From Alphaproteobacteria bacterium 65-37 (lineage in GTDB: Bacteria; Pseudomonadota; Alphaproteobacteria; Reyranellales; Reyranellaceae), in contig MKRV01000037.1 of NCBI GenBank assembly GCA_001897995.1, positions 1 through 39,172 on the forward strand: DNA of 39,172 nucleotides. The letters are read 5' to 3'. Made by a program: the position numbers and the translations under genes. Within the stretch, counting starts at the first letter, position 1, and each line of letters begins with the position of its first letter. Under the pieces are notes generated by a model that did no database searches, was not told the origin of the DNA, and saw only the letters and a list, made by a program, of their open reading frames with translations. Of this stretch, positions 2,662 to 35,985 are shown piece by piece.

Positions 2662-3372
2662 TCAGCCTTCGTGATCAAACGCCACTCCGCACCGGGCCAG
2701 TTCGGCCAGGACCGCCGAAGGCGTCGCTTTCTCCATGAAGGCCACGGCCCACAGATCGAAATCCGTCGCCCGCTTTGTGTGGACCTCCGAAAATCCCGCG
2801 TCGATCAACAATCGCCCCAGCCGGTCGGCCGTGAAGCCCGTGTGATGCCGCATCGTCATCTTGCCGTCCGCAATCGAGGCACCATGGCCGTAGAGCATGT
2901 CGAGCACCGAGATCGGGCCCGACGGAGAGAGGTAAGCCGTATGGTCGGGCCCGTTCTGGAGCAACGATTCGGCGACCGATTCGAGATCAGGACAGCGGAG
3001 CAGAGCGAAGCCGTCTGGCTTCAGCACCCGGCAAAGTTCCTTGAATGCGAGCGGCACCTCATGGGCGTGCAGATGCTCGATATTGTGTGACGACCAGATC
3101 GCATCGTAGGTTCCCGATGGAACAAGCGATCTCATGTCGTGAATGGAGCAGACGATGTCGGGCTGAACACTGCCGTCGACGTCGAGTCTCGTCTCGCGCC
3201 AGCCGCGCCCTCCAAACATCGGGTGGAGCTTTCGGGCGGAATAGATGCCACAGCCAGTGTGCAGAACATTCCGTGTTTGCCGATCGTGCGGCCGCACCGA
3301 CCCGGCCGGCATCGTCTTGAACACCACGGTACCGGCATCGCGCCGTCCGTCAGCCATCGGCCTGAAATTCAT
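2662..3372 (-). CDS. Class I SAM-dependent methyltransferase (Methyltransf_11 type)
   Basis: A 236-residue protein. VLHTGCG near residue 36 is motif I, slightly unusual because T replaces the more common D or V before GCG. It is followed by an acidic residue after beta-2 (RLDVDG), the post-III segment YDAIWSSHNIEHL (about 88-100) and LKPDGFALLRCPD (about 117-130), as in small-molecule or sugar methyltransferases. The C-terminal half carries FTADRLGRLLIDAGF, the usual end of this fold. It sits just upstream of the large glycosyltransferase, so methylation of a glycan or its precursor is a reasonable inference, but the acceptor is unknown. The start at 3372 gives a somewhat long N terminus; a later start is possible. 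Confidence 0.8.
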   Translation of the reverse strand: MNFRPMADGRRDAGTVVFKTMPAGSVRPHDRQTRNVLHTGCGIYSARKLHPMFGGRGWRETRLDVDGSVQPDIVCSIHDMRSLVPSGTYDAIWSSHNIEHLHAHEVPLAFKELCRVLKPDGFALLRCPDLESVAESLLQNGPDHTAYLSPSGPISVLDMLYGHGASIADGKMTMRHHTGFTADRLGRLLIDAGFSEVHTKRATDFDLWAVAFMEKATPSAVLAELARCGVAFDHEG

Positions 3373-3762
3373 TCGACGCCTCGTTTGCCTGGCCTCGTTT
3401 TCATGGATGGGAGCGTCAGGAGATCCGAGCGGTCGTGCTGCGCAAGAAGCAGAAACGATCGACCATCATCGCCCGTCGCAATGCCTGCCGGATAGGACGG
3501 GCAACCCGCCAGCCACCGGCATGAATCCTACGCCAGGCGACGCTCGAAAGCCAAATGCTTCGTCGGGCGGGCAGTGTTGGTTTACCGTTCGATTGCGCTC
3601 GCCGCTATGTCGCCGACGTGACGAATTTGTTTGCTCGGACGGTCAGCTCGCATCGAGCCGCGAGCGCCGAATGCTCGCGCGAGCAAGCGGCCTGGACCCA
3701 GCCGCCGTAACGTGTTCGAGGCCGGTCCAAGGCAGCCGGTCGTCCAATCGAGGCACTGCCCT
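3373..3762. other. Intergenic stretch with no recognised gene
   Basis: About 390 bases between the divergent methyltransferase and monooxygenase genes. Reading frames here have atypical composition and no recognisable domain. The region must contain the methyltransferase promoter, but no convincing -35/-10 pair was found for it. Confidence 0.5.
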
Positions 3763-3792
3763 TTGACTCAAAATTCTAAATATGATTAGAAT
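3763..3792 (+). promoter_or_regulatory. Sigma-70-type promoter of the monooxygenase gene
   Basis: TTGACT (3763-3768), an 18-base spacer, then TAGAAT (3787-3792). The start of transcription would fall near 3799, giving a leader of about 50 bases to the ATG at 3852, which has AGGAGG just upstream. The palindrome at 3771-3794 covers the spacer and the -10 box. Confidence 0.6.
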
Positions 3793-3794
3793 TT
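3771..3794. promoter_or_regulatory. Palindromic operator, copy 1 (TTCTAAA-N5-TTAGAA)
   Basis: Arms AAATTCTAA and TTAGAATTT form a 9-base inverted repeat around six central bases. The same TTCTAA-N6-TTAGAA core recurs at 12279-12302 beside the tetR-type gene, in the same position relative to a TAGAAT box. Covering the -10 element implies repression. The regulator is inferred to be the TetR protein at 12359-13120. Confidence 0.7.
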
Positions 3795-3851
3795 GTCGCG
3801 GCGTCCGGCCAGCCGTTCCCGGTCGGTACCCTCGAAGGCAGGAGGCCTCGC

Positions 3852-4973
3852 ATGCATGTCGGCTTGGGGTTGAGTTTTCAGAACCTGATTGCGGGGCAGA
3901 CCGATGCTCAGGTCTATCGCAACGAGCTGCAGTTGGCCGGCCGGGCCGAGCAGGTCGGGTTCGATTCGGTGTGGACGCCGGAGCACCATTTCACCGACTA
4001 CATGCTGACGCCCAACGTCACGCAGTTCCTGTCCTGGGTGGCGGGGCGGACCAGCCGCGTGAAGCTCGGCTCGATGGTGACCGTGCTGCCCTGGCACGAT
4101 CCGCTGCGCGTGGCGGAGAACTTCACCCTGCTCGACCATCTGTCGGAGGGGAGGGCGGTGCTGGGTATCGGCCGCGGCCTCGGCCGTGTCGAATTCGACG
4201 CCTTCCGGACGCCCATGGCAGAATCGCGCCGGCGCTTCACCGAGTACACCGAAGCCATCCTGACCGGCCTGGAAACCGGCGTCATGGAGTATGACGGAGC
4301 GCTCTACAAGCAACCGCGCACGCACATCCGTCCCGGCCCCTATGCCAGCTTCAAAGGCCGGACATTCGCGTCGGCGATCTCGCCCTATTCGATCGATCTG
4401 ATGGCCAAGCTCGGTGTCGGCCTGATGGTGATCGCGCAGAAGCCCTGGGAGATGGTGAAGAATGAGATCGTGGGCTACCGGCAGCGCTATTTCGCCGTGA
4501 ACGGCACGCCCGCGCCCAAGCCGATCCTCAACATGTTCGTCGCGGTCAACGAAGATCCGGCCGAAGCACAGCGCATGCGTGAGGTTTATCTGCAGCGTTA
4601 TGCCCGCTCGACGGTCGAGCATTACGAATTCGGCAATGTCGGCTTCGCCGAGATCGAAGGTTACGAGTACTACGCGGGCCTCGCGCGGAACATCGAGAAG
4701 CACGGCCTTGAGAAATTCAACGGCTTCCTCGCCGACCTGCAGGTCTGGGGCACGCCGGGCGAGGTTGCCGAGAAGCTGATCAAGTATGTCGACTATCTCG
4801 ACGCGGGCGCGCTCCTGGTCATGCTGAGCTACGGCGGCATGTCGGCGGACGTGGCGAAGCGGAACTACGATCTCTTCGTGTCGTCGGTGCTGCCGAAGCT
4901 CAAGCGCTATGACGTCGGTGGCGACATCGGCGTGCTGTCCTCGCCGGAGACGGCAGCCACCGCGGCGGAATGA
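3852..4973 (+). CDS. LLM-class flavin-dependent monooxygenase (bacterial luciferase-like)
   Basis: A 373-residue TIM-barrel oxidoreductase. Family features are AGRAEQVGFDSVWTPEHHF (about 30-47), LGSMVTVLPWHDPLRVAEN (about 72-90), LSEGRAVLGIGRGLGR (about 96-111) and a late WGTPGEVAEKLIKYVDYL segment. Such enzymes use FMNH2 from a separate reductase with O2 to hydroxylate, cleave or Baeyer-Villiger oxidise a substrate. No reductase is encoded nearby. The ATG is preceded by AGGAGG at good spacing. Its promoter carries the same operator as the acyl-CoA synthetase/Rieske operon 8 kb away, so it probably oxidises an intermediate of that pathway. Substrate unknown. Confidence 0.88.
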   Translation: MHVGLGLSFQNLIAGQTDAQVYRNELQLAGRAEQVGFDSVWTPEHHFTDYMLTPNVTQFLSWVAGRTSRVKLGSMVTVLPWHDPLRVAENFTLLDHLSEGRAVLGIGRGLGRVEFDAFRTPMAESRRRFTEYTEAILTGLETGVMEYDGALYKQPRTHIRPGPYASFKGRTFASAISPYSIDLMAKLGVGLMVIAQKPWEMVKNEIVGYRQRYFAVNGTPAPKPILNMFVAVNEDPAEAQRMREVYLQRYARSTVEHYEFGNVGFAEIEGYEYYAGLARNIEKHGLEKFNGFLADLQVWGTPGEVAEKLIKYVDYLDAGALLVMLSYGGMSADVAKRNYDLFVSSVLPKLKRYDVGGDIGVLSSPETAATAAE

Positions 4974-4996
4974 AGTGATCCGGGCGGGGGCTTGGT

Positions 4997-6274
4997 TTAC
5001 TCACCATCGTCCTTCCTTCCAACACCGCCCAACAAGGTGAGCAGCACCGCCGCGAAAAGCACTGTGCTGCTGGCGACGAAGACGCCGACAATGTTGCTGG
5101 CATCGAGCACCACGCCGCCGATGCCGGCCCCCAGTGCGATGGCGAGCCCGATGGCGGCGACGATCAGTGCGTTGGCGCTCTCCGGTTGATCGGGAGCGGC
5201 ACGGGCCGCCCAGGTCGTCCAGGCCACTGGCACCCCTCCGAAGGCAAGCCCCCACAGCGCCACGAGGAAGGCGACGAGGGCAACGACCGGCACGGCGCCG
5301 CCGAACGGCGTACCGCCGAGGGTGGCCAGAAAGGCGCCGAGCAGGCTCATGGCGAAGGGTAGCGCGACCAGGGTGGTGCGCAGGCGGCGCGCCAACAGGA
5401 AGCCCGCCAGATAGGTGCCGAGGAAGCCCGCAACGCCGAAGCCCAGCAGGATGGCCGACATCGCGTCGACGCCGATACCGGCCATGCCCTCGAGGAAGGG
5501 CCGAATGTACGTGAAGAACATGAAGTGGCCGGTGAAGACCAGGATGACAGCCGCAAAGCCCGGTCCGAGGCGAGGACGCCTCAGCAGCTCGAGGAGCGAG
5601 CCGAGCCTGGTCGCACCGCGCGACGCAAGACGCGGCAGGGCGATGGCTTGTGCAAGGAGTGCCACGACGCCGAGTCCCGCCGTGATGGCGAACACGACCC
5701 GCCACCCTGCGAAACTGCCGACATAGCTGCCGAAGGGGATGGCGAGGACCGTGGCTGCCGAGATGCCGCTGTAGACGATCGCGACGGCACGAGGCATCAG
5801 CGAGGGCGGGACCAGGCGCATGATCGTGGGCGTGGACAGCGCCCAGAAACCACCGAGCGCGATACCGAGCAGGACACGCCCGGCGAACAGCACGGTGACG
5901 TTGGTCGCAACGGAGACCAGGAGAGCAGAAGCGATCACCAGTGTGGAGAAGGCGAGCATTACCGTCCGTCGGTCGAGGCGTTGCGTCAGGGTGGGGGCCA
6001 GGAGGGCCATGATCGAGGCGACAGCGGCGGTGGTGGTGACCGCCTGTCCTGCCAGCCCTTCGGTGACACCGAGATCGCCGGCAATCGGCGTCAGGAGGCC
6101 AGCCGGCAGGAACTCGGCGGTAACCAATGCGAAGACGCCGAGCGCCATCGACAGCACGGCTCCCCAGTGAGCCGGTTCGTGCGCGGCATATATCGTGCGA
6201 GGCGGATCTGCCGACGGTGAGGCCGACGAAGAGAGGCTATCTTGTGAGGTGTCGTCAGATGCTGTCCTGCTCAT
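4997..6274 (-). CDS. MFS transporter, DHA1 family, NepI-like
   Basis: A 425-residue protein with about 12 hydrophobic segments after a soluble N-terminal tail of about 35 residues. EFLPAGLLTPIAGDLGVTEG in TM1 and the following loop, GRVLLGIALGGFWALS in TM4 and FTYIRPFLEGMAG in the second half closely recall the NepI/AraJ group of drug:H+ antiporters; NepI exports purine ribonucleosides. It is divergent from an AraC-type gene with about 50 bases between starts, the usual arrangement for a locally regulated exporter. It interrupts the two halves of the proposed TetR regulon and has no copy of that operator. Substrate is uncertain. Confidence 0.88.
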   Translation of the reverse strand: MSRTASDDTSQDSLSSSASPSADPPRTIYAAHEPAHWGAVLSMALGVFALVTAEFLPAGLLTPIAGDLGVTEGLAGQAVTTTAAVASIMALLAPTLTQRLDRRTVMLAFSTLVIASALLVSVATNVTVLFAGRVLLGIALGGFWALSTPTIMRLVPPSLMPRAVAIVYSGISAATVLAIPFGSYVGSFAGWRVVFAITAGLGVVALLAQAIALPRLASRGATRLGSLLELLRRPRLGPGFAAVILVFTGHFMFFTYIRPFLEGMAGIGVDAMSAILLGFGVAGFLGTYLAGFLLARRLRTTLVALPFAMSLLGAFLATLGGTPFGGAVPVVALVAFLVALWGLAFGGVPVAWTTWAARAAPDQPESANALIVAAIGLAIALGAGIGGVVLDASNIVGVFVASSTVLFAAVLLTLLGGVGRKDDGE

Positions 6275-6327
6275 CGTGGTAGAAGCTGGGGGTGACGCTT
6301 CGGGGGCGCTTTGTCGGAAGGTCCAGA

Positions 6328-7380
6328 ATGATTGATCGTTCGTCCAAATCGGACTCGCGCGACCGCGATGGGTTGCCGAACGATCTCATGAGCGAGCTGC
6401 TGCTCTGTCTCAGGCTGAACGGCGTCTATTGTCGCCGGCTGCATGTTTCGCCACCTTTCGGCATTCGCTTCGATGCCGTACCGGGGCGCGCCCAGTTTCA
6501 TTTTGTCGCGAATGGCGAGGCGTTCCTGCGCCTGACCTCGGGTGCCGTGCATCGGCTCGCGGCAGGAGATGCGGTGCTGTTGCCCCATGGCAGCACAGCC
6601 GACCTGGTTTCTGCGCCGAACCTGCCGGCGACGGTGCAGACACGCCTTCATGCAATGACGCCGCAGCCCCGCGAGACCGGCAGGTCACCCGAGCGCCTGG
6701 GCGGGGGCCAGAGACGGCAGCCGCCTGATCAGACGACGCACGTGTTCAGCGGCTGCATGGCGTTCGACCTCGGCAGCCTGCGGCCGCTGATCAAAGAGAT
6801 GCCCGAGGTGATGCTGATTGGCCGGCTGATCGACCGCCAACCCGAGATCGACGCGCTGCTGCAAGCGATGGAGCGCGAGGTGCTGGCCGAGCGCATCGGC
6901 TCGGGCGGTGTTCTCGCCCATATCGCCGGGGTGATCTCCGCCTACATCGTGCGCGACTGGGTGGAGTTCGGCTGCAAGGAGGGACGAAGCCACGATGCTG
7001 GACGCTGGCTGGGGACCTTGCGCGATCCGCGTCTCGGTCGCGTGATCGGCGCCCTGCATCGCGACCCCGGGCGCGACTGGACGGTCGCGGAGCTGGCGAC
7101 CATGACAGGCATCTCGCGTTCTGCCTTTGCCGAGCGCTTCCTGGCTGTCACCGGCCGCACGCCGTTGCGTTACGTCGCGGAGCTGCGCATGCGTCTGGCC
7201 GCGGAATGGATCGTCGAGGACGGTCTGGCGATCGACGTCGCCGCACAACGCCTGGGCTACGGTTCGCAGGCTGCCTTCAGCCGCGCCTTCAAGCGCCTCA
7301 CAGGCCAACCGCCCGGTGCTCTGCGGGCCGGGCGCGCGGCGGTGGCGCGCACGCCTGCCGTTCGGGCGGCCGGTCGGTGA
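6328..7380 (+). CDS. AraC-family transcriptional regulator
   Basis: A 350-residue protein. The N-terminal half looks like a cupin-type AraC ligand domain (FHFVANGEAFLRLTSGAVHRLAAGDAVLL is typical, about 60-90). The C-terminal 100 residues hold the two helix-turn-helix units: WTVAELATMTGISRSAFAERF followed by TPLRYVAELRMRLAAEWI, then AQRLGYGSQAAFSRAFKR. I chose ATG 6328 over 6292 because GGAAGG lies at proper spacing before it; the upstream start would leave only 17 bases to the divergent MFS gene. It most likely controls that exporter. Confidence 0.87.
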   Translation: MIDRSSKSDSRDRDGLPNDLMSELLLCLRLNGVYCRRLHVSPPFGIRFDAVPGRAQFHFVANGEAFLRLTSGAVHRLAAGDAVLLPHGSTADLVSAPNLPATVQTRLHAMTPQPRETGRSPERLGGGQRRQPPDQTTHVFSGCMAFDLGSLRPLIKEMPEVMLIGRLIDRQPEIDALLQAMEREVLAERIGSGGVLAHIAGVISAYIVRDWVEFGCKEGRSHDAGRWLGTLRDPRLGRVIGALHRDPGRDWTVAELATMTGISRSAFAERFLAVTGRTPLRYVAELRMRLAAEWIVEDGLAIDVAAQRLGYGSQAAFSRAFKRLTGQPPGALRAGRAAVARTPAVRAAGR

Positions 7381-7386
7381 GGCCGC

Positions 7387-8502
7387 TCAGCGATCCCGTT
7401 GATCGCGCAGCTTTCCGGCATCCTTCGGATGGGCGTAGGGGTGCCATTTGATCTCTTCTTCCTCGCCGACAGCCGACTGCAGCAGTGCCTGGCCCTGGCG
7501 GTAGAGTGCGATGAGCCGGTCCTCGGCGGCATAGTCGAACGTGTCGCCCAGCGCCCGTTCGATGTCGCCGCCGCGCTCCGGCGGATGGGCGAGGTACCAG
7601 TCGACGGTGCGGGCGAGCGCCTCGCGAACGCCCAGGAGGTCGCGATAGCCCAGCTCGGTGCGGATCCGCGTCAGGTCGAGCAACTGGTGTCCCTGCGGGC
7701 TGAGAACCCGCGCCCGATGCGGGCCGGCGACTTCGTAGGAAACCGGGATGATCTCGACCTCCCGGCCAAGTGTCGCTGCGATCGTCTGGACGACCTGTGC
7801 CAGGGTGAGCTGTTCGAGGTCGCCGCAGTTGTAGACCTTGCCGGCCGCGATTTCGGGCTGGTCCGCCGCGAGCAGAACGGCATGGCCGAGATTGCCGGCC
7901 CAGCCGTGGGTCGAGAGGCTGAGGCCATAGTGCGGCAGGATGATCTCGCGCCGGCCCTCGAGCAGGCGGCGCATGAAGGACCATTCGCGCGGTCGCACCT
8001 GATAGGGGCCGTAGACATAGGGGTAGCGAAAGACGGTGGCGGTCGGGTGCGCAGCGAAGACGGCCTGTTCCGACTGAGCGATCTTCCAGGCGAAGCTCTG
8101 CTCCTGCTCCGTCGCCACGACTGGCGCTTCCTCCGGCACGGGGCTGGTCATGCCGGGCGGCTCGAGGCGGTAGGGATCGACCCAGCCGCGATAGGCGGCA
8201 TAGCCGCCGATGCCGATGAACTGGCCGGCGCGACCCTTCAGGGCAGCCGCCAGCAGGCGCAGGCGCCCGTAGCTCGCCACGACGAGGTCGAAGGTTCGAC
8301 CCACGAGTGCCGCCTCGATGGTCTCGGCGAAATGCGGATCGCCGTGAATATGTTCGACGTCGTCGGGGATCTCGGGAATTTCGTGGGTGCCGCGATGGAA
8401 GATGGTGACGCCATAGCCGCGCTGGCGCAGCCCGTTCACGATGAACGGGCCGGTGGGGCCGGTGCCGCCAACGACGAGGGCGCGCTTGCGTTGACCGCTC
8501 AT
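7387..8502 (-). CDS. NAD-dependent epimerase/dehydratase-like extended SDR, atypical active site
   Basis: A 371-residue extended SDR. VVGGTGPTGPFI (about 10-21) is the nucleotide-binding glycine motif and FRYPYVYGPYQ (about 158-168) matches the conserved R-P-x-x-V/Y-G segment. The usual catalytic YxxxK is not intact: the aligned stretch is SFAWK (136-140), so the Lys remains and the Tyr position is Ser. Its start overlaps the stop of the upstream Rieske gene by four bases (8499-8502), implying translational coupling as the last gene of the operon. A role in reducing, epimerising or binding a pathway intermediate is inferred. The missing Tyr suggests altered chemistry, or a structural or binding function as in CSP41-like relatives. 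Confidence 0.8.
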   Translation of the reverse strand: MSGQRKRALVVGGTGPTGPFIVNGLRQRGYGVTIFHRGTHEIPEIPDDVEHIHGDPHFAETIEAALVGRTFDLVVASYGRLRLLAAALKGRAGQFIGIGGYAAYRGWVDPYRLEPPGMTSPVPEEAPVVATEQEQSFAWKIAQSEQAVFAAHPTATVFRYPYVYGPYQVRPREWSFMRRLLEGRREIILPHYGLSLSTHGWAGNLGHAVLLAADQPEIAAGKVYNCGDLEQLTLAQVVQTIAATLGREVEIIPVSYEVAGPHRARVLSPQGHQLLDLTRIRTELGYRDLLGVREALARTVDWYLAHPPERGGDIERALGDTFDYAAEDRLIALYRQGQALLQSAVGEEEEIKWHPYAHPKDAGKLRDQRDR

Positions 8503-9641
8503 GCGCCGATCTCCCGGTTGATCGCGGCGTGCAGATGGATCAGCGCAGGCTCGATGCGGCCGTAGACCACTTCGGGCAGCGCACCGGAGGCGAGGTTGGC
8601 TTGCACGCGCTCCTGCAAGGGGAAGTCCTCCCGGCCCGTCACGTCGAGCAGGATGTCGAGGTTGCGCTTCCAGTGGGCGCGCGTCTTGTCATCCGTCGGA
8701 GGCTCGGGTGCGAACAGGCTGGTCGATACCGTGCAGGATCCGGCATCGTGCGGTGTCACCTTCCAGACTTCGATATGGTCGAGCTGGTAGACGAGGAGGC
8801 CGTTGGGCACGAGGAAATACTGGGTCGTCGAGAAGGGCAGCAGCCGCCACTCCTCGCGCGGCTTGGTTTTGAGCTGTTCGACGACGTCCTTGCGCAGACC
8901 GATGGTGCGCGGGTGCGGGCCGTAGGCGTCGAAGATCAGGTCGCACATGAAATAAGGCGCGATCGAGGTCCGGTGCAGCCAGCGTATGTGGTAGGCCTCG
9001 GTGAAGGTGTCGAGGAACAGCTTCCAGTTCATCTTCCAGCTGTTGACCCGCGTCTCGACGTGGACGTAGTCGGCCAATCCGTAGTCGGCCAGCTCGTCCT
9101 CGGCGCCGCACAAGACCGTGTCGACCTCGAACGGCGCCTCACTGGTCGGATGGACGAAGATCATGCCGTATTTTTCGGCGACGGCGCGCCGATGCAGATC
9201 GCAGCTCGCCGCCACATCGTCGAAGCCGCCGGCCGAGCCCGGCCGGTTCAGCAACCTGCCGTCGTTGTCGTACGTCCAGCCGTGATAGGGGCAGACGATG
9301 CGCCGCATGCCGCCCTTGCCATTGCCGCCCAGCAAGGGAGCGCCGCGATGGCGGCAGGCATTGACCAGGGCGCGGAGACTGCCGTCAGGTTGCCGCACGA
9401 CAGCGATGGGGATGCCGCCGAGATCGGCGGTGATATAGCCGCCGGGCTCGGCGCACTCGCCGGTCAGTCCGACGAATTGCGGCCGGCCCCGGAACAGGAT
9501 CTCGCGTTCCCTGGTGAATCGGTCGGCATCGGTATAGGCGGCGGCGGGATTGCGCATGCTTTGTGGACCGAAGCCCCAGGGGAGTTCGGTATCGGCACCG
9601 ACCAGCCGGTCGAGCAGTTCGATCTGTCGTGAAACGCGCAT
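8499..9641 (-). CDS. Rieske non-heme iron oxygenase, alpha (catalytic) subunit
   Basis: A 380-residue ring-hydroxylating-type oxygenase. The [2Fe-2S] Rieske ligands are C96-x-H98 and C117-x2-H120 (ACRHRG and CPYHGW; the 18-residue gap is slightly long). The mononuclear iron site is in DTFTEAYHIRWLH, with H218 and H223, and a likely third carboxylate near D339 (REDFPLQERVQ). The start is set at ATG 9641 because AGGAGGAG precedes it; the open frame continues upstream with an Arg-rich run that is not credible protein. No ferredoxin or reductase gene is in the window, so electrons must come from elsewhere. It lies between SDR genes in a TetR-controlled operon, consistent with hydroxylation or demethylation of an organic acid. 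Confidence 0.9.
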   Translation of the reverse strand: MRVSRQIELLDRLVGADTELPWGFGPQSMRNPAAAYTDADRFTREREILFRGRPQFVGLTGECAEPGGYITADLGGIPIAVVRQPDGSLRALVNACRHRGAPLLGGNGKGGMRRIVCPYHGWTYDNDGRLLNRPGSAGGFDDVAASCDLHRRAVAEKYGMIFVHPTSEAPFEVDTVLCGAEDELADYGLADYVHVETRVNSWKMNWKLFLDTFTEAYHIRWLHRTSIAPYFMCDLIFDAYGPHPRTIGLRKDVVEQLKTKPREEWRLLPFSTTQYFLVPNGLLVYQLDHIEVWKVTPHDAGSCTVSTSLFAPEPPTDDKTRAHWKRNLDILLDVTGREDFPLQERVQANLASGALPEVVYGRIEPALIHLHAAINREIGA

Positions 9642-9690
9642 TGCTCTTCTCCTCCTGCGGCGCCGCGGGCTTGCTACCCGTTGGCGATCG

Positions 9691-10476
9691 CTATCGCGGC
9701 ATCTGGAAACCGCCCGAGACGCTGACGACCTGGCCGGTAAGCTGGCGGGCACGTTGCGATGCCAGGAACAGGACCGACCAGGCGATATCGACGGCTTCCG
9801 AGCGGCGGCGCAGCGGAATGCCGGCCTCGATGTTCTGGATCTCCTTCGGGCCCATGCCGATGTCGATGCTCCAGAGGCTGCCTTCGCCGATCTCCTCGGC
9901 CGGCGGGATCACCAGGCCAGGCGCAACCGCGTTGGCGCGGATGCCGTAGCGGCCGTATTCCTTGGCGATGGTGCGCGTGAAGGCCAGCACGCCGGCCTTC
10001 ATCGCACCGTAGTCGGACATGCGGTACTCGCCGAAAGCGGCGTCGCTGGCGATCGAGACGATCGAGCCCGCGCGCCGTTCGACCATTCGCGCCAGTACCG
10101 GCTGGGTGACGTTGAAGGTCGAAAAGAGATTGAGCTCGAAGGCCTTCTGCCAGCGGTCGGGCGACAGACCGAGAAAGAATTCGGCCTTGCCGTTCCACCC
10201 CACGTTGTTCACCAGGACGGCAATGGGACCGAGTTCGGCCTCGACCTGCTTCACCGTGGCAGCCGTGCCGTCGACGTCGGTGACGTCGAGGGCATAGACC
10301 GCCGCTCGCCCACCACTGGCCTCGATTTCCGCCTTGGTCTTGCCGGCCTGGGCGGCATCGCGATCGAAGATGGCCACGGTCGCGCCTTCGCCGGCGAATT
10401 CCTGGGCGATCGCGCGGCCGATATTCGAAGCGCCGCCGGTGACGACGACGACCTGATCGGTGAAACCGAGATCCAT
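9691..10476 (-). CDS. Short-chain dehydrogenase/reductase, BadH-like
   Basis: A 261-residue classical SDR: TGGASNIG (13-20) cofactor motif, NNVG (90-93, variant of NNAG), catalytic S144, Y156 and K160 (YGAMK), and a C-terminal GQVVSVSGGF typical of the family. MVERRAGSIVSIASDAA strongly resembles 2-hydroxycyclohexanecarboxyl-CoA dehydrogenase (BadH) of anaerobic benzoate and cyclohexanecarboxylate degradation, pointing to a hydroxyacyl-CoA substrate made by the acyl-CoA synthetase encoded 19 bases upstream. AAGGGGAAG precedes the ATG. Exact substrate unknown; family assignment secure. Confidence 0.9.
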   Translation of the reverse strand: MDLGFTDQVVVVTGGASNIGRAIAQEFAGEGATVAIFDRDAAQAGKTKAEIEASGGRAAVYALDVTDVDGTAATVKQVEAELGPIAVLVNNVGWNGKAEFFLGLSPDRWQKAFELNLFSTFNVTQPVLARMVERRAGSIVSIASDAAFGEYRMSDYGAMKAGVLAFTRTIAKEYGRYGIRANAVAPGLVIPPAEEIGEGSLWSIDIGMGPKEIQNIEAGIPLRRRSEAVDIAWSVLFLASQRARQLTGQVVSVSGGFQMPR

Positions 10477-10495
10477 GCTTGCTTCCCCTTGCGGC

Positions 10496-12250
10496 TCAGG
10501 CCTGAGCCGCCTTCAGACGTTCCTTGGCCATGGCGATCAGGTTGAATTTCTGCACCTTGCCCGTCGGCGTGGTCGGAAGCTCCGATGCCTCCAGGAAGAA
10601 GACATGCTTGGGCACCTTGAAGCGGGCGAGATGGTCACGGGCGAGCGCGATCATTTCGGCTTCGTCGAGCGCGGCGTCGGGCGTACGGACGATCCAGGCG
10701 CATCCGATTTCGCCCCAACGTTCGTCGGGGACGCCGACGACATAGGCTTGGGCCACGGCCGCGTGGCCGGTGAAGAGCTCCTCGATCTCCTTGGGCGAGA
10801 CAAGCTCGCCGCCCGACTTGTAGAGTTCCTTGGAACGGCCCGTGAGCTCGAGGTAGCCGTCCGGCCGGATGCGTCCAAGGTCGCCGGAACGGCGCCAGCC
10901 GCCGGGCAGCAGCAGCTCGGCCGTTTCCTTGGGCTTGCCGAAATAGCCGGAGGTGGCGATCGGGCCGCGGGCACAGAACTCACCTTCGGCACCGGCCGGC
11001 AGGTCCTCGCCCGTCAGCGGGTCGACGACCTTGTACTCGGCGATCAAGCCGCCCAGGGCCGGAATACCGGCCACGCCGGCATCGAGCGGCCGCCCGACCG
11101 TCGCCGACACGATCTGCAGAGGATCGCCCGGTGCCGTGAGCGTCGTCGCCGACGAAAGCTCGGTCATGCCGTAGCCGGTATAGACCTCGTCGAGGCCCAG
11201 CCGATCCTTCAAGGATTGCCAGGCCCAGACCGGCGAGGGTGCCGCCGCCATCAGCACGTCGACCAGCGAGGAGAGGTCGTAGCGACCGAGCTCCGGATGA
11301 TTGGCCAATGCCACGCCCATGGTGGGCACGATCATCATGTAGCTGGCGCGGTGCTGCTGGATGCCGGCGAAGGTCTGCACCGGATCGAAGACGAGCTGCG
11401 GGACGATTGCGCCGGCGACGAACAGGGCGGCGACCAGCCCTTGCACCAGGGCGAAGGCGTGATAGAGCGGCAGGGCCGAGAGGATGCGGCGGCCGTCCTC
11501 GAAGGCCAGATGATAGGCGCCGCCGAAGCCGGAACGCGCCAGGTTGTCGTGGGTCTGGATGACGCCCTTGGGCAACCCGGTCGTGCCCGAGGTATACATC
11601 ACGACGGCGGTATCGTCGGGGCCGGCAGGATTGGGTCCGAGAGGCGAACGATCCATTGCTCCGGCTTGCGCGATATCGCCGAGCGACAGCAGGCCGGCGT
11701 CGTTGTCCTCCAGGACGGCAACATGGGTGAGGGCATCGAAGGGGCCGAAGTTGCCCTGGCGCCAGCCCGGCGCCATCTCGTCGAAGGAGGCGAGATAGTC
11801 GAGCCCCCGGAAGGACGACATGGTCACGACCACCCGGCAGCCGGACTGCCCGATGACATAGGCCAGTTCCTTCGTCTTGAAGAGGTAGTTCACGGGGATC
11901 GCCGCCGCGCCGAGGCGCCAGATGGCGAAGACCAGCGGCACGAATTGCGGCACGTTCGCCAGCACCAGGGCGACACGGTCGCCCGGACCGACACCGAGCT
12001 TGCGCAATCCCCGAGCGATGGCCTCGGACTGCTGCAGGACATCGGCGTAGGTGAGCGTGGTGTCGTCGGTGATGACCAGCGGCCGATCGGGATATTCCCC
12101 TGCGACCCGTGCGAGGTGAGCGTCGAGAGTGGTGGCGGGCCAGGTCGGGTAACGTGCCTCGAGCAGAGCGCGCCGTTCGCGGAACGGCGCCAGCTTCGGC
12201 GCCGGCTGGCCTGGAGCCTGAGCGGCGGGGGCAAGGGTCGCAGTTGGCAT
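10496..12250 (-). CDS. AMP-forming acyl-CoA synthetase (ANL superfamily)
   Basis: A 584-residue ligase with the full motif set: YTSGTTGLPKG (219-229, P-loop), YGMTE (360-364), SGDLGRIRPDGYLELTGRSK (455-474) and the C-terminal catalytic Lys in PTGKVQK (about K566). It adenylates a carboxylic acid and transfers it to CoA; the acid is not predictable but aromatic or alicyclic acids fit the neighbours. It is the first gene of the minus-strand operon ending at 7387. GGGAG is near 12259-12263 and the promoter/operator is at 12279-12310. About 108 bases separate it from the divergent TetR gene. Confidence 0.92.
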   Translation of the reverse strand: MPTATLAPAAQAPGQPAPKLAPFRERRALLEARYPTWPATTLDAHLARVAGEYPDRPLVITDDTTLTYADVLQQSEAIARGLRKLGVGPGDRVALVLANVPQFVPLVFAIWRLGAAAIPVNYLFKTKELAYVIGQSGCRVVVTMSSFRGLDYLASFDEMAPGWRQGNFGPFDALTHVAVLEDNDAGLLSLGDIAQAGAMDRSPLGPNPAGPDDTAVVMYTSGTTGLPKGVIQTHDNLARSGFGGAYHLAFEDGRRILSALPLYHAFALVQGLVAALFVAGAIVPQLVFDPVQTFAGIQQHRASYMMIVPTMGVALANHPELGRYDLSSLVDVLMAAAPSPVWAWQSLKDRLGLDEVYTGYGMTELSSATTLTAPGDPLQIVSATVGRPLDAGVAGIPALGGLIAEYKVVDPLTGEDLPAGAEGEFCARGPIATSGYFGKPKETAELLLPGGWRRSGDLGRIRPDGYLELTGRSKELYKSGGELVSPKEIEELFTGHAAVAQAYVVGVPDERWGEIGCAWIVRTPDAALDEAEMIALARDHLARFKVPKHVFFLEASELPTTPTGKVQKFNLIAMAKERLKAAQA

Positions 12251-12271
12251 GGCGTCTACTCCCGTTGTTCT

Positions 12272-12310
12272 TTGCCGAAAATTCTAAAACACTTTAGAAA
12301 AAGACTGCAA
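12272..12310. promoter_or_regulatory. Divergent overlapping promoters of the acyl-CoA synthetase operon and tetR-type gene
   Basis: Minus strand: TTGCAG (12305-12310), an 18-base spacer, TAGAAT (12281-12286). This has the same spacing and -10 box as the monooxygenase promoter at 3763-3792. Plus strand: TTGCCG (12272-12277), a 17-base spacer, TAGAAA (12295-12300), a weaker match. Both -10 boxes lie inside the palindrome, so one bound repressor would block both directions and autoregulate. Confidence 0.55.
12279..12302. promoter_or_regulatory. Palindromic operator, copy 2 (TTCTAAA-N5-TTAGAA)
   Basis: TTCTAA (12282-12287), six bases, TTAGAA (12294-12299). It is identical to copy 1 at 3771-3794 over the first ten bases (AAATTCTAAA) and the TTAGAA arm, while five central bases and the last three differ, as expected for conserved repressor contacts. 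It is located between the acyl-CoA synthetase operon and the divergent tetR-type gene. Confidence 0.7.
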
Positions 12311-12358: not shown

Positions 12359-13120
12359 ATGGTGTATCCGTATGGTTCCAGTTCTGGACCAATCAGGGGT
12401 GGGTCTTTGGCGGCCAGGCAAAACACCAAGTCGACGCGCGGAAAATCTGCAGGCAAGCCGGCTGCACCGTCATCATCGAAACCGAAGACGACCGACCTGC
12501 CCGCAGCGTCCCGCGCGGCATCGCCCCGCAAGTCCGACCTGACCCGACAAAGGATCCTGCAGGCGGCAGCGCGGGTATTCCGCGAGCAGGGCTATGCCGG
12601 CACACGCTTGTCGGACGTGGCGACTGCGGCCGGGATGAAGACGGGGAGCCTCTACTATCACTTCGATTCGCGCGAGGCGCTGGTCGAGGAGGTGGTCCAG
12701 GAAGGGGTGCGCCGCGCCCACGAGGTCGTGACCGAGCGGCTGCGCAAGCTGCCAGCGGATACCGGCCCACTGCAGAAGATCGAGGCGGCCATCGAGACGC
12801 ATCTCGCTTTCGTGTTGCGCGAGGGCGATATCAGCTCGGCCAGCATCCAGCTCATCTCGCAGGTTCCCGCCGAGATCCGCGAACGTACTCTGGCCGTGCA
12901 GCGTATCTATGGGGCCTTGTGGCGGCAGCTCCTGGAACAAGCACGCGACGCCGGTGCCCTTCGAGCCGACGTCAACCTGTCGGCGATCCGAATGTCGATC
13001 CTGGGCGCGCTCAACTGGGCGCCTGAATGGTATCGCCCCTCTGGGGCCAGCCCAAAGCAGATTGCCCACGACATCTCGGTCATGGTCCTGCACGGCCTGG
13101 CAAAGGGCAAAGGCTTCTAG
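12359..13120 (+). CDS. TetR/AcrR-family transcriptional regulator with a long basic N-terminal tail
   Basis: A 253-residue protein from ATG 12359. The TetR helix-turn-helix is clear: LTRQRILQAAARVFREQGY, then TRLSDVATAAGMKTGSLYYHF, preceded by about 60 residues rich in Ser, Lys, Ala and Pro that look disordered. The C-terminal domain contains LPADTGPLQKIEAAIETHL, as in TetR proteins of acyl-CoA catabolism. An alternative start is TTG 12407, preceded by GGGGTGGG, which would shorten the tail by 16 residues; neither site is decisive. The frame stays open far upstream, antisense to the acyl-CoA synthetase, but that part is not coding. It probably binds the palindromes at 12279 and 3771 and is released by a pathway acyl-CoA. 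Confidence 0.85.
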   Translation: MVYPYGSSSGPIRGGSLAARQNTKSTRGKSAGKPAAPSSSKPKTTDLPAASRAASPRKSDLTRQRILQAAARVFREQGYAGTRLSDVATAAGMKTGSLYYHFDSREALVEEVVQEGVRRAHEVVTERLRKLPADTGPLQKIEAAIETHLAFVLREGDISSASIQLISQVPAEIRERTLAVQRIYGALWRQLLEQARDAGALRADVNLSAIRMSILGALNWAPEWYRPSGASPKQIAHDISVMVLHGLAKGKGF

Positions 13121-13219: not shown

Positions 13220-14512
13220 TCAGGCCCGCGCGACCGCCGATTCGAAGAGGGACTCGAAGCGGTCTGCAATGGCCGAAATGTCGAACGAGCCTTCGGCATA
13301 GGCGCGAGCCGCTTCGCCGAGCTTCACCCGTTTCTCCGGCGCGTCTCGCAAGCATTGGGCGGCTGCGACGAAGGCGTCGCGATGCCCTGCCGGGACGCAC
13401 TCTCCGGCGGCTGCCCGGCCGAGAACCTTCACCGACAGATTGTCGGTCGGTGCGGACAGAAGGATGGGACGGCCGGCACAGAGATAGTTCAGGACCTTGG
13501 AGGGCACCGAGAACGGACCGGCGTCGCTCTCCAGCAGGGCGACCAGGATGTCGGCCGAAGCGAGAACGTCGGCGAAGACTTCCATGGGTTGCAGCGGCAG
13601 GAGCACGAGATTGGATTGGCCCTCGGCTTTGGCACGAGCCTTCAAGGCGTCGTAGCTGACGCCCGCTCCGACGACGACGATGGCGACATCGGGATCATGC
13701 TCGAAGGACTTGGCCAGAGCCCACAGGAGGTCTGGATTGTGCTTGAGCGCCAGCGTTCCCGAATAGAGGAAGACGAACTTGTCTTCGAGGCCGTGTTCGC
13801 GGGCCCAGCGATTGTTCCTGGACCGCATCGGCAGTTGGTCGAGCGCGCCCCAGTTCGGGATGACTTCCGACTTGTCGTCGGCGACGCTGAGGCTATGCAA
13901 GGCCTGCTTGAAGTCGTCGCTGATGAGCACGATCCCGTCGCTGCGACGCAACAGGCTCGCCTCGAGATGCTTGTAGTACGCGCCCACCATATGGCCGAGG
14001 ACAGGCACCTTGCGGCGCAGGATGTGGGCGGCCGCCAGGCTGTAGAAATCCTGCATCCAGAAGACGAAGGCGGAGTCGGCGCGGCGGGCGCTTCTCAGGA
14101 TCGACGCCTGCGCTTCCAGAGGCGTATTGCCCGAGATCGTCACATCGGGGGAGAAGGACTCGATCTTCGCGCCGGCAAGCCGACCATAGAGGAGGTCCGC
14201 CTGGCGCCGTTGGATCAGGTTGCTCTTCGAATAGGCTCGACCGATCGAGATCGGTTCCACCGAGAAGCTGTCGGGATCGTCGGGTGAGCGCTGCGTGGCG
14301 CCCTTGGGGCCCGCATCCTCGGCGAAAAAGAAATGACGGACGTCGTGTCCCCGCCGGGCGAGCTCCCGCGAAAGCTCGAACTGGAAGGGATGGCCGCAAT
14401 AGTCGTGGACCGCGATTCTCTGGGACCGGATCGGCCTTTGCATGTAACGCGCGTCGACAATCGTGGCGCCGGCCCTGGTGGCGGCGCTCTCCACAGTGCT
14501 GATCTGGACCAT
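13220..14512 (-). CDS. GT4-type glycosyltransferase
   Basis: A 430-residue GT-B enzyme. The C-terminal nucleotide-sugar domain shows FLYSGTLALKHNPDLLWALA (about 248-267), VVVGAGVSYDALKARA and ESDAGPFSVPSKVLNYLCAGRPIL (about 328-351), resembling WbuB/WcaI-like transferases of exopolysaccharide or O-antigen synthesis. The N terminus contains the acceptor-side HDYCGHPFQFELSRELARRGHDV. I set the start at ATG 14512 because AGGGAG lies just before it; another ATG in frame is at 14527. It is 60 bases downstream of the epimerase gene on the same strand. Sugar and acceptor unknown. Confidence 0.85.
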   Translation of the reverse strand: MVQISTVESAATRAGATIVDARYMQRPIRSQRIAVHDYCGHPFQFELSRELARRGHDVRHFFFAEDAGPKGATQRSPDDPDSFSVEPISIGRAYSKSNLIQRRQADLLYGRLAGAKIESFSPDVTISGNTPLEAQASILRSARRADSAFVFWMQDFYSLAAAHILRRKVPVLGHMVGAYYKHLEASLLRRSDGIVLISDDFKQALHSLSVADDKSEVIPNWGALDQLPMRSRNNRWAREHGLEDKFVFLYSGTLALKHNPDLLWALAKSFEHDPDVAIVVVGAGVSYDALKARAKAEGQSNLVLLPLQPMEVFADVLASADILVALLESDAGPFSVPSKVLNYLCAGRPILLSAPTDNLSVKVLGRAAAGECVPAGHRDAFVAAAQCLRDAPEKRVKLGEAARAYAEGSFDISAIADRFESLFESAVARA

Positions 14513-14572
14513 GAATGCTCCCTGCACGACCTTGCGCGGACGCCGCCTTGGTGGCGGCTCTCCATGAGAAGG

Positions 14573-15598
14573 TTATTGCGCCGCCATCGCCTGTTGCGGC
14601 AGGGCGTTGACGACCGAGGCCTTGCCCGAGGTCATCTCGTCGTAGATCCACTTGTAGGTCTTCTCCATGCCGTCCTCGAGACGGATGGAAGGTGCCCAGT
14701 TCATCACTTGCTTGATCAGCGTGTTGTCGCTGTTGCGGCCGCGCACGCCCTTGGGCGCGTCGAGCTTGTAGCTGCGCTTCAGCTTGATGCCGGCGATCTT
14801 CTCGACGATGTCGGCGAGGCGATTGATGCTGACCAACTCGTCGCTACCGATGTTCAGTGGCTCGATGATGTCGCTTTCGGCGAGCTTGATCGTGCCCTCG
14901 GTGCAGTCGTCGATATACATGAAGGAGCGGGTCTGCTCGCCGTCGCCCCAGATCTCGATCTCATGCTTGCCCGAGAGCTTGGCCTCGATGACCTTGCGGC
15001 ACATCGCGGCCGGCGCCTTCTCGCGACCACCGTCATAAGTGCCTTCCGGCCCATAGACGTTGTGGTAGCGGGCGACGCGGGTCGCCATGCCGTAGTCCTC
15101 GCGGAAGTGACGGGCCATGCGCTCGCTGAACAGCTTCTCCCAGCCGTAGCCGTCCTCCGGCAGGGCGGGGTAGGCGTCCGACTCCTTGAGCGCCGTCACG
15201 TTGGCGTCGGTCTGCTTGTCGCCGTTGTAGACGCAGGCCGACGACGAATAGAAGAAGCGCTCCGTACCGGCTTCCTTGGCGGCGACCAGCATATGCGTGT
15301 TGATCAGCACCGACAGCATGCACTCGGCCTTGTGGGTCTCGATGAAGCCCATGCCGCCCATGTCGGCCGCCAGGTTGTAGATCGCCTTGGCATCCCTGGC
15401 AGCCTTGCGGCACGGCTCGAGCAGGGCGAGGTCGCCCACCTGGTTCTCGACGCCGGGATGCTTCTGGTACCACTCGGCAAGCGGCTTCACGTCGACGGCG
15501 CGAATCTTGGTATGACCACGCTGCTGCAGCACCTTGACCAGATGGCCACCGATGAAACCTCCGGCGCCGGTGACGACGATGAGATCATCCTTGGACAT
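14573..15598 (-). CDS. GDP-mannose 3,5-epimerase-like NAD-dependent epimerase
   Basis: A 341-residue extended SDR: TGAGGFIGGHL (10-20), catalytic YxxxK at Y151-GWE-K155, plus C122 (SSSACVY) and K194 (GGREKAPAA), the positions that in plant GDP-D-mannose 3,5-epimerase act as acid/base for double epimerisation. NLAADMGGMGFIETHKAE, WGDGEQTRSFMYIDDC and GVRGRNSDNTLIKQ match that enzyme almost word for word. It should convert GDP-mannose to GDP-L-galactose and/or GDP-L-gulose, here presumably for a surface polysaccharide rather than ascorbate. GAGGAA precedes the ATG. It is probably cotranscribed with the GT4 downstream. Confidence 0.85.
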   Translation of the reverse strand: MSKDDLIVVTGAGGFIGGHLVKVLQQRGHTKIRAVDVKPLAEWYQKHPGVENQVGDLALLEPCRKAARDAKAIYNLAADMGGMGFIETHKAECMLSVLINTHMLVAAKEAGTERFFYSSSACVYNGDKQTDANVTALKESDAYPALPEDGYGWEKLFSERMARHFREDYGMATRVARYHNVYGPEGTYDGGREKAPAAMCRKVIEAKLSGKHEIEIWGDGEQTRSFMYIDDCTEGTIKLAESDIIEPLNIGSDELVSINRLADIVEKIAGIKLKRSYKLDAPKGVRGRNSDNTLIKQVMNWAPSIRLEDGMEKTYKWIYDEMTSGKASVVNALPQQAMAAQ

Positions 15599-15643
15599 GA
15601 ACGAATTTCCTCACGAATAAATGTCGGTCTGCACACAGAAGAT

Positions 15644-15659
15644 TTCGGTGCTCACCGAA
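15644..15659. promoter_or_regulatory. Palindrome in the epimerase upstream region
   Basis: TTCGGTG-CT-CACCGAA, a perfect 7+7 inverted repeat, lies about 46 bases before the epimerase ATG on the minus strand. It could be an operator or a leader hairpin; nothing distinguishes these. Confidence 0.35.
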
Positions 15660-15747
15660 GCGCTACTGAAGAGCACGACAGCGCCGCGTGCAGTCGCCTC
15701 GAAAACTGATCGTCGACGACGACGATTGCAACGGATCGCGCGCCCAA

Positions 15748-15850
15748 CCACAGCGATGTCACGTGCGCAGCAACAGCACGACTAAGCGCAATGCATGGAC
15801 TGCAACGCATGAAACGCAACGGGCAGAGTTCCTGCCACAACGATGTCACG
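15748..15850. promoter_or_regulatory. Pair of 16-base direct repeats, CCACARCGATGTCACG
   Basis: CCACAGCGATGTCACG at 15748-15763 and CCACAACGATGTCACG at 15835-15850 differ at one base and lie 87 bases apart, in the roughly 300-base gap (15599-15894) between the LysR gene end and the epimerase start. Apart from these and the palindrome at 15644, nothing recognisable occupies the gap. They may be activator or repressor sites for the epimerase/GT4 operon. The core CRATGTCAC also appears twice before the beta-helix gene (32561 plus strand, 32658 minus strand). Confidence 0.4.
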
Positions 15851-15894
15851 GGAAAACAGAATTGCCATAAACGGCGGGATGCGGGCCGCGATCC

Positions 15895-16797
15895 CTAAGA
15901 TCCCGCGGCCGTGTCGAGCGCATCGGCGATCAATCGCACGAGCTCACGGCCGAGCGGTCCTGGGCGGCGGTCGGCGAGCCAGGCGGCGCTGATCGTGCGG
16001 CTGGGCTGGAGCTGGGCGTCGCTGCAGGGGAGGAGACGGACGATGCCGTTCTGCAGTTCCTCGGCGAAGAAGTCCTCGCTGGCGAAGCACCAGCCGACGC
16101 CGTTGCAGATCAGGCGGCGGATATGTTCGAGATCGTTGGCGGTCCAGACATCGAGGCTGAAGACACGGCCCACACGTTCCATGTCGATGCTGGGTGATTC
16201 CACGAAATAGATCTGCCGCTCGCGTTGCATGTCGGCGAGCGTCAGCGGTCGCCCCAGCAGCGCGAGCGGATGATCCACTGCGGTGGTGGGCCGGAGGACG
16301 ATCTGGCGGAACGACTGGCCTTCCATGTCGAGCGGCAGGGCGGCGACCAGGGTGAGGGCGAAGTCGATGCGGCCGGCGCGCAGCTCGTCCCAAAGGTTGT
16401 TCAGCGAGCTGTTGAAGATCTGCAGTTCGACCCGCTCGTGCTGGGAGATGAACGTCTTGAGGGCGCGATGCAGGGCGGCATGGGGGAAGACGACATCGAC
16501 GGCGATGCGGATGCGCGTCTCCGCACCTTGTTCCAGCGACGCGGCATGCGAGGTGAAACGCCGCGCGCGCTCCACGACCGCCTTGGCCTCGCCGAACAGG
16601 GCGCGGCCCCGCTCGGTCAGTTCCGACCGCCGCGTGCCGCGTTTCAGGAGCGGGAAGCCGCACTGCGTTTCGAGCTGCGCGAGGGAGTAGCTGATCGAGG
16701 AGACCGCCCGATTGAGGGTGCGGGCGGCGACCGAAAAGCTGCCCGTCTCGGTAACGGCGATGAAAGCTGCCAGGTGGTCGACCAGATTGGGCTGCAT
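15895..16797 (-). CDS. LysR-family transcriptional regulator
   Basis: A 300-residue protein with the LysR winged HTH at 5-65 (FIAVTETGSFSVAARTLNRA, then SYSLAQLETQCGFPLLKR) and a periplasmic-binding-like effector domain from about 92. It is divergent from the ABC transporter/ligase operon with about 90 bases to the first possible start codon, the classic layout in which LysR activates the divergent operon in response to substrate or its CoA ester. Confidence 0.9.
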   Translation of the reverse strand: MQPNLVDHLAAFIAVTETGSFSVAARTLNRAVSSISYSLAQLETQCGFPLLKRGTRRSELTERGRALFGEAKAVVERARRFTSHAASLEQGAETRIRIAVDVVFPHAALHRALKTFISQHERVELQIFNSSLNNLWDELRAGRIDFALTLVAALPLDMEGQSFRQIVLRPTTAVDHPLALLGRPLTLADMQRERQIYFVESPSIDMERVGRVFSLDVWTANDLEHIRRLICNGVGWCFASEDFFAEELQNGIVRLLPCSDAQLQPSRTISAAWLADRRPGPLGRELVRLIADALDTAAGS

Positions 16798-35900: not shown

Positions 35901-35985
35901 TCAGCAGATGGCCTTGAGCGACAAGGACTATCAGGACGTCTTGATCAGCGTGAAGACCAACAAGGACGGACTGCTGATCGTGTAA
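32923..35985 (+). CDS. Secreted-type duplicated beta-helix protein with DUF4114 C terminus
   Basis: A 1020-residue protein with no signal peptide. Residues about 1-325 and 330-640 are two copies of the same module. Compare PIVINVTKDTQGPIGIDLGG with PIVINITADNPYPKGIDLGG, and LDVIGNVSTGTVFNSWMHGN with LDIIGSVFEGMVSNSWMIGN. These look like right-handed parallel beta-helices as in pectate lyases, glycan epimerases or adhesins. A Pro/Gly/Thr/Asp repeat linker follows (644-724), then LADLNGDTISGFGHGNTIDI, seen in type I-secreted proteins, and a DUF4114 domain (about 845-1015; FFLIQDG, MGFDDQQMALSDKDYQDVLISV). The lack of a Sec signal plus this C-terminal layout suggests type I export. It could bind or modify the polysaccharide made by nearby transferases; no catalytic residues are evident. 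Confidence 0.85.
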   Translation: MSELAPLLQQAFNNGTLVVGTDHTYTVSAPIVINVTKDTQGPIGIDLGGARIVSNITNGAPVIQINVAAGVDLANLTLTNFSIWGSGSDGDGIQIVANGTDRLVHDWSVSNVTIQHVGGAGLDVIGNVSTGTVFNSWMHGNAGGGALFSNGDAGGTISDIEWAGGGFRKNDVGGLVLEHGAQGVSVSGAYFVDNYAPGIVAPSGITSVTTSGFENNVGSAIEFNGHGDFWANTFSTFGPQATGIDGSLSGSASLVSNISEYYGSGGSALLAYIQGAGNLAEVGGGISTGGNVAVEGAGTFSGQIVSSKVDFQMPSVTPITAADSAPVADSHSGSELETALRDALTTGYIANLAAKTYVVTEPIVINITADNPYPKGIDLGGATIVSQITDGRPVIQINVASNTDIRYLTLSNFTLQGNGQEGDGIKIVTDSPTSWLYNWTVSDVTVKGVGGIGLDIIGSVFEGMVSNSWMIGNADGGARFAHSVNDGQASALRWYGGGVEDNGVAGIILANGARDLVVDGAVVANNHGPGIVAPYGITAVTDSRIQDNQGIGVVFQNYGSFINNQFVTSGSQLTGVEAWLNGPSALINNTSTYTGSGNDPTALANLQGYGQIGVYGHEKVIAGPSTQVVGLEGLITPHASGYVPGTDHPVTEQPGTPGTDTPVTGTPGTDTPVTGTPGTDTPVTGTPGTDTPGTDLPGNGGTDTPVTGTPGTDTPGTGTPGKTPTGDHITLGPNDDVLHHTLADLNGDTISGFGHGNTIDITGSLIGRDNLGVTKVGDGVSLTAGDSSFHLSGDFSGGDFMAVARGSGADAHTLVTFENFLPNLQEGVSVNPAAVNGVINQPFFEGDGAVRFSVELKEAVSDYHNTLGTYRIAEDGTISDVHIVFADTRAVTPGTTVDLGVPGNNQKIGFFLIQDGHDVYGNLPDNLTLVAPGTTNAANANSGVAPVLHSATLGDLSSAAVFHTFSTMNAGNEQHVLSGTAPGGHELLMGFDDQQMALSDKDYQDVLISVKTNKDGLLIV
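34850..35096 (+). repeat. In-gene tandem repeat, 30-base unit encoding GTPGTDTPVT
   Basis: Within the beta-helix gene, about eight perfect or degenerate copies of a 30-base unit encode GTPGTDTPVT or shortened forms (GTDTPGTDLP, GTDTPGTGTP). They make a flexible, Thr-rich linker between the second beta-helix and the C-terminal domains. Copies in the middle are nearly identical, so number may vary by slippage. Confidence 0.85.

Follow-up and report, generated by a model that had tools for sequence, protein, structure and literature searches.

Is a lone flavin monooxygenase gene controlled together with a Rieske oxygenase operon from which an exporter gene and a regulator gene separate it? The question is raised by a stretch of 39,172 nucleotides (here called the window) from Alphaproteobacteria bacterium 65-37 (Reyranellaceae; contig MKRV01000037.1). 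The window carries a gene for a luciferase-like flavin monooxygenase (LLM class, hereafter LLM; 3852-4973, + strand; Pfam Bac_luciferase) and, on the opposite strand, an operon whose first gene encodes an acyl-coenzyme A (acyl-CoA) synthetase (10496-12250, - strand; Pfam AMP-binding). A short-chain dehydrogenase (SDR; 9691-10476, -; Pfam adh_short) and a Rieske oxygenase (8499-9641, -; Pfam Rieske and Ring_hydroxyl_A) follow, and the probable last gene, which overlaps the Rieske gene, encodes an NAD-dependent epimerase-like protein (7387-8502, -; Pfam Epimerase). Divergent from this operon is the gene of a TetR-family regulator of the TetR_C_24 type (12359-13120, +, with 12359 the first possible ATG; Pfam TetR_N and TetR_C_24). 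Our reading, which we consider highly probable, is that this TetR would act as a local repressor of two promoters through the palindrome TTCTAA-N6-TTAGAA.

Operator sites and promoters in the window

The palindrome occurs with zero mismatches at 3774-3791 (operator 1, TTCTAA-ATATGA-TTAGAA) and at 12282-12299 (operator 2, TTCTAA-AACACT-TTAGAA); neither site is assigned a strand. Operator 1 occupies spacer sequence and overlaps the -10 box in the promoter of the monooxygenase gene, read from the sequence as TTGACT-N18-TAGAAT (3763-3792, +). Operator 2 is common to the synthetase operon promoter, TTGCAG-N18-TAGAAT (12281-12310, -), and to a possible tetR promoter on the + strand, TTGCCG-N17-TAGAAA, which it overlaps. 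The distance from operator to ATG is 60 bp for the monooxygenase, 31 bp for the synthetase, and 59 bp for the first possible ATG of tetR. Such a placement, in the spacer and over the -10 box, would fit repression through exclusion of RNA polymerase. A preliminary description of this DNA had located both sites, their like position over TTGNNN-N18-TAGAAT, and a plausible divergent tetR promoter under the second site, all of which were recovered here. It had also called the two promoter-operators identical, which is true of the arms and the promoter frame and not of the central six bases, which differ between the copies.

With up to three mismatches allowed, there were five strand matches in the window; 100 shuffles gave a mean of 0.63, and none attained five. 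The genome-wide scan that the preliminary description had proposed found no crowd of random exact copies: in the whole assembly (7,149,348 bases, 319 contigs), the two window sites were the only ones. Base composition predicts 0.02-0.03 exact copies per genome, and an order-3 Markov model trained on 160 kb of the source genome predicts 0.003.

Conservation at orthologous promoters

Both promoters were then compared in related genomes, a check also suggested in the preliminary description, and sites were conserved before the orthologues of both target genes. For LLM, the best 30 loci of the monooxygenase matches were searched over 300 bp upstream. Orthologues at 82-100% identity had an exact site in three of three genomes, operator 1 itself having exact counterparts before those of genomes G040 and G001, and homologues at 55-56% had a 1-mismatch site in four of four; at 49-51% identity, none of 23 homologues had an upstream site better than 4 mismatches. 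At least one site preceded the synthetase orthologue in all six genomes where that orthologue was found, with the arms of operator 2 kept in each. In alignments of the three LLM and six synthetase promoters, the operator arms were the conserved blocks, joined in the synthetase promoters by GCAA (the TTGC of the -35 box).

The nearest relative, G040, encodes a TetR that is 74% identical to the window TetR over the conserved part, and its genes are contiguous in the order LLM (+), Rieske (-), SDR (-), synthetase (-), operator, and tetR (+). Its LLM gene is preceded by two sites, one with 1 mismatch and one exact, and a third site, with 1 mismatch, separates synthetase from tetR. By comparison with this order, the window has exporter, AraC-type, and epimerase genes sitting between LLM and Rieske. 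The earlier remark that gene order would hide the link thus applies to the window, with its three inserted genes, and not to G040. In G001, a 1-mismatch site on contig C162 has tetR on one side and synthetase and SDR on the other, and an exact site lies ahead of the LLM orthologue on contig C143. An operator between tetR and its divergent target was therefore seen in the window, G040, and G001. Genomes G072, G073, and G074 each have two sites, with 1 mismatch apiece, before the synthetase gene; G072 and G074 belong to another genus of the family. In G073, a different LLM gene, itself preceded by a 1-mismatch site, is followed by a 77% homologue of the window epimerase, so the content of the regulon is kept through changes of gene order. 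For the Rieske gene, matches at E values of ≤1e-90 occurred in 5 of 75 family genomes (window's included) and orthologues at ≤1e-110 in 1 of 385 genomes of a class-wide sample (the window's own).

Occurrence of the motif in the family and the class

Scanning the 75 family genomes for the motif alone gave seven exact sites in six genomes (reversed control, two), four of them at LLM or synthetase promoters of a window-type regulon. Those in G006 and G048 lie about 17 kb from a tetR gene of the type found on contig C211 of the source genome (described below). Another, at 9822-9839 of locus L190 (G034:C65), precedes an open frame of 413 aa by about 0.2 kb.

Across 385 Alphaproteobacteria there were 44 exact sites in 34 genomes, of which two were the window's and 42 were further sites. 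Of the 42, we examined 35: flanking sequence of at most 1.5 kb was read for 29, and 19 were covered by 18 regions of at most 20 kb (13 sites were in both sets); the larger regions were chosen by hand, larger genomes first. A TetR homologue lay within 1.5 kb of the site in 4 of the 29 loci listed (window's excluded), all 4 among the 6 loci with a G+C content of at least 0.50, and in 0 of the other 23. TetR homologues (E below 1e-38) were present in 6 of the 18 larger regions and in none of the other 12, which were mostly of lower G+C content. In five of the 18, roughly 20-80 bp separated a site (exact; one mismatch in G337) from the aligned start of tetR. Since TetR homologues at E values of ≤1e-20 number about one per family genome, such proximity of site and tetR is unlikely to arise by chance. 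The bare motif was rejected as evidence by itself, as it showed no excess over the reversed control across the 385 genomes.

The palindrome in the wider TetR lineage

A wider sample consisted of the best 80 named TetR relatives, searched at up to 1 mismatch and up to 400 bp upstream of tetR. The palindrome was found in 14 of these 80 loci, which are not independent (five come from Microbacterium, and L090 comes from a family genome), compared with a mean of 0.017 and a maximum of 1 for 59 permuted half-sites. Other gaps from 0 to 12 gave 0 to 2 loci, confining the association to the 6-base gap. Together the 80 loci held 33 such sites, whereas 20 permutations gave 0 or 1 apiece. In a tree built from 93 TetRs, the 25 rows labelled "site upstream" were clustered, the label needing 10 changes versus a shuffled mean of 22.5; labelled rows came from Alpha-, Beta-, and Gammaproteobacteria and several Micrococcales. 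At the stringency of the tree, no row of the Pseudonocardiaceae or Mycobacteriaceae had the label, nor did a clade of 17 rows that is mainly burkholderial. The C211 paralogue was also unlabelled, as the site nearest to it has 2 mismatches and is on the far side of two transposase genes.

Seven Micrococcales promoters (L088, L099, L106, L115, L119, L124, and L138) also carry a second palindrome, GTGAA-N6-TTCAC, 51-62 bp upstream of the TTCTAA site and some 107-240 bp ahead of the tetR match. This was considered as a second half-site type of some Actinomycetota tetR genes and rejected, as it lies apart from the TTCTAA-type site; we take it as a separate element because seven of eight loci have it 51-62 bp further upstream in the same promoter.

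A paralogue on contig C211

The source genome encodes a TetR paralogue (39% identical) on contig C211. Its cluster comprises BadH-, BadI-, and cyclohexanecarboxyl-CoA-dehydrogenase-like genes (below model cut-offs), a cytochrome P450 gene, two LLM genes, and genes of an ATP-binding cassette importer. Within locus L052 (G000:C211), the bad-like genes and the P450 gene, at 3005-5760 and 6593-7822, stand beside the TetR gene and TTCTAA-type sites. Three of these sites have one arm mismatch, two between badH and P450 and one before LLM2, and such sites recur in like clusters of other family genomes. Elsewhere in L052 (13545-17791), a 2-mismatch site is separated from the paralogous tetR by transposase genes of the IS1634 and ISL3 types (14132-16737); the counterpart of this site in related genomes is within a few hundred bases of tetR.

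Site profiles, with both orientations pooled, were built from 13 window-type and 24 C211-type distinct sites. An A at position 7 was present in both window sites and in 0 of 48 C211-type half-sites. Because the sites were collected by consensus, conservation of the arms is partly a product of how they were chosen; the spacer bases are unaffected. The difference at position 7 hints at a separation of the two paralogues.

We advance, tentatively and with somewhat more doubt than conviction, the proposal that a large and so far undescribed TetR_C_24-type lineage in Pseudomonadota and Actinomycetota inherited TTCTAA-N6-TTAGAA as its ancestral operator. Modular pathways with oxygenases, LLM enzymes, and CoA ligases would be under the control of its members, among them a bad-like alicyclic cluster, for which one would expect a MarR regulator; the motif would be a key by which unlinked genes can be assigned to their regulator, and paralogues of one genome would be separated by bases just inside the arms.

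The TetR protein and a proposed mechanism

The window TetR has 253 aa, with a single match to PF00440 (TetR_N; E value, 6.3e-17) and a match to PF17932 (TetR_C_24; E value, 2e-22). The TetR_N helix-turn-helix domain, together with an all-helical predicted model that has TetR fold matches, places it in the TetR family. The structure model has a mean pLDDT (predicted local distance difference test) score of 86.8, and its best fold matches included PfmR (top), AibR with isovaleryl-CoA, Bacillus FadR, KstR2, and the nucleotide-binding DarR, of which AibR, FadR, and KstR2 bind acyl-CoA and PfmR is likewise counted among the acyl-CoA-responsive TetR proteins. Given this family, the protein would be expected to bind a short palindromic operator as a dimer, and the palindrome at the promoters has a suitable size. 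The operon that it would control starts with a CoA-ligase gene, which makes a CoA thioester an obvious candidate for the inducer, and a reasonably likely one.

In the proposed circuit, a TetR dimer would occupy the 18-bp palindrome at the monooxygenase promoter and at the promoter of the synthetase-SDR-Rieske-epimerase operon, where DNA-bound TetR would exclude RNA polymerase; at the latter it would also cover the possible tetR promoter and so control its own gene. The synthetase would form the CoA thioester of its substrate, and that or a later CoA thioester would free TetR, whose release would induce the flavin monooxygenase and the CoA-dependent operon together. Action of TetR on both units, as the preliminary description had supposed, is supported because sites are conserved at orthologous promoters and absent from non-orthologous monooxygenases, and because the palindrome occurs beside other TetR genes of the lineage. 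Self-control, which it had likewise proposed, is supported in the branch of the window, with an operator beside tetR, and not in G071-G074, where none was found; autoregulation of the window tetR is probable.

Evidence against the proposed circuit and alternative explanations

Several results weigh against this reading. In the source genome, a scan at up to 2 mismatches returned 18 strand matches versus 13 for the reversed control, so that only near-exact sites are informative, and in the 385 Alphaproteobacteria the reversed pattern was commoner than the exact motif, with many matches in small genomes. The exact site of G034 had no recognised TetR within the 12 kb read, and in the G071-G074 branch tetR itself had no site within 400 bp upstream. 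Among the 80 TetR relatives, 66 were without an upstream site at up to 1 mismatch. Finally, the C211 paralogue, with its similar operator, resides in the same genome.

That paralogue might wholly or partly read the window sites, making the two clusters one cross-regulated network. The sites before badH, P450, and LLM2 are a single arm mismatch away from those of the window, the window and C211 LLM proteins are 55% identical, and the C211 cluster, with its P450 and LLM genes, resembles cyclohexanecarboxylate (bad) genes. We nevertheless consider such a network improbable, as the window's own tetR is the nearest to both window sites, an association kept in G040 and G001, and as the position-7 A is absent from every C211-type half-site. 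Some TetR-family proteins are activators, and palindromes can have other functions, so the TetR protein might activate its targets or the palindromes might serve another end, such as RNA structure. An operator inside the promoter and over the -10 box, with conserved arms around a free spacer of fixed length 6, as in the site of a dimeric protein, makes both very unlikely. The motif is also short, and exact copies arise by chance in AT-rich genomes; in the source genome, where 0.003-0.03 exact copies are expected and the sites are conserved at orthologous promoters, coincidence has next to no probability, and we rejected it on the genome scan, the permuted half-sites, and the expected counts.

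Comparison with known regulators

The TetR circuit was compared with described systems as presented in the available portions of the cited papers. Mycobacterial BkaR is likewise a TetR that controls itself and a divergent CoA-metabolism operon, with its motif before a further gene, but the half-site of its operator core, GTTA-N-T-N4-A-N-TAAC, is unlike that of the window (PMC3920632). Mycobacterial KstR, an autoregulating TetR repressor of oxidative catabolism, has an A/T-rich palindrome over the -10 region; its operator, TAGAAC-N2-GTTCTA, differs in having the half-sites in reverse order and another gap, and its regulon is larger, with dozens of genes (PMC1995591). BadR of the bad-ali clusters, reported for Gram-negative bacteria, is a repressor of CoA-dependent alicyclic-acid genes that is released by a CoA thioester, a role like that of the C211 paralogue; it belongs to the MarR family and binds CAAN4TTG, whereas the window regulator has TetR_N and another palindrome and so is not a BadR (PMC9795900). 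The second TetR unit of Mce3R matches the window TetR at an E value of 3.3e-20, but Mce3R is a fused double TetR with a non-palindromic operator, unlike the single TetR unit and palindrome of the window (PMC11667970). PfmR (TTHB023) and FadR of Thermus are TetR proteins of fatty-acid genes, the former being the best fold match noted above; their consensus operators, a G+C-richer 16-mer around ACYGryCRGT (PMC7022988) and TTRNACYNRGTNYAA (PMC5597230), differ from that of the window.

In the available text on KstR, BkaR, BadR, PfmR, Thermus FadR, and Mce3R, none has an operator with the same arms and gap, and identity with any of these operators was rejected. The main text of a mycobacterial TetR motif survey has no TTAG or CTAA string (PMC4482099). 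Among the matches listed from the full-text literature, no TetR operator of the TTCTAA-N6-TTAGAA form was found; subscription papers were mostly outside this scope, and a printed precedent is possible. The preliminary description had not recognised the operator as that of a known TetR, in agreement with this outcome. The circuit is thus classical for a TetR in kind, with an apparently undescribed operator that is shared by part of a TetR lineage.

Other features of the window

The two genes inserted between LLM and the operon encode a major facilitator superfamily exporter (4997-6274, -; Pfam MFS_1) and a cupin/AraC-type regulator (6292-7380, +; Pfam Cupin_6 and HTH_18). Neither is thought to be a regulon member; the first is not between LLM and Rieske in G040, nor is the second at that place. 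Their open frames begin 17 bp apart (6274-6292), and the two resemble a divergent unit, complete in itself, that was inserted among the catabolic genes. None of the NCBIfam models listed for the window proteins attained its cut-off. Tandem repeats with periods of 15, 30, and 60 bases occur at 34883-35093, within a 1020-aa open frame (32923-35985).

Significance

To our knowledge, an operator is known for only a minority of TetR proteins. An 18-bp site such as this, near-exact, scarce in genomes of high G+C content, and found repeatedly next to some members of a lineage, would make regulons predictable from sequence; in the window, it would tie the lone flavin monooxygenase to a pathway with a Rieske oxygenase and a CoA ligase. 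The divergence of operator specificity could be studied with the two paralogues, whose similar operators occur in one genome. For the genus Reyranella, the C211 cluster suggests TetR control of bad-like genes, where the MarR-type BadR has been reported in Gram-negative bacteria (PMC9795900).

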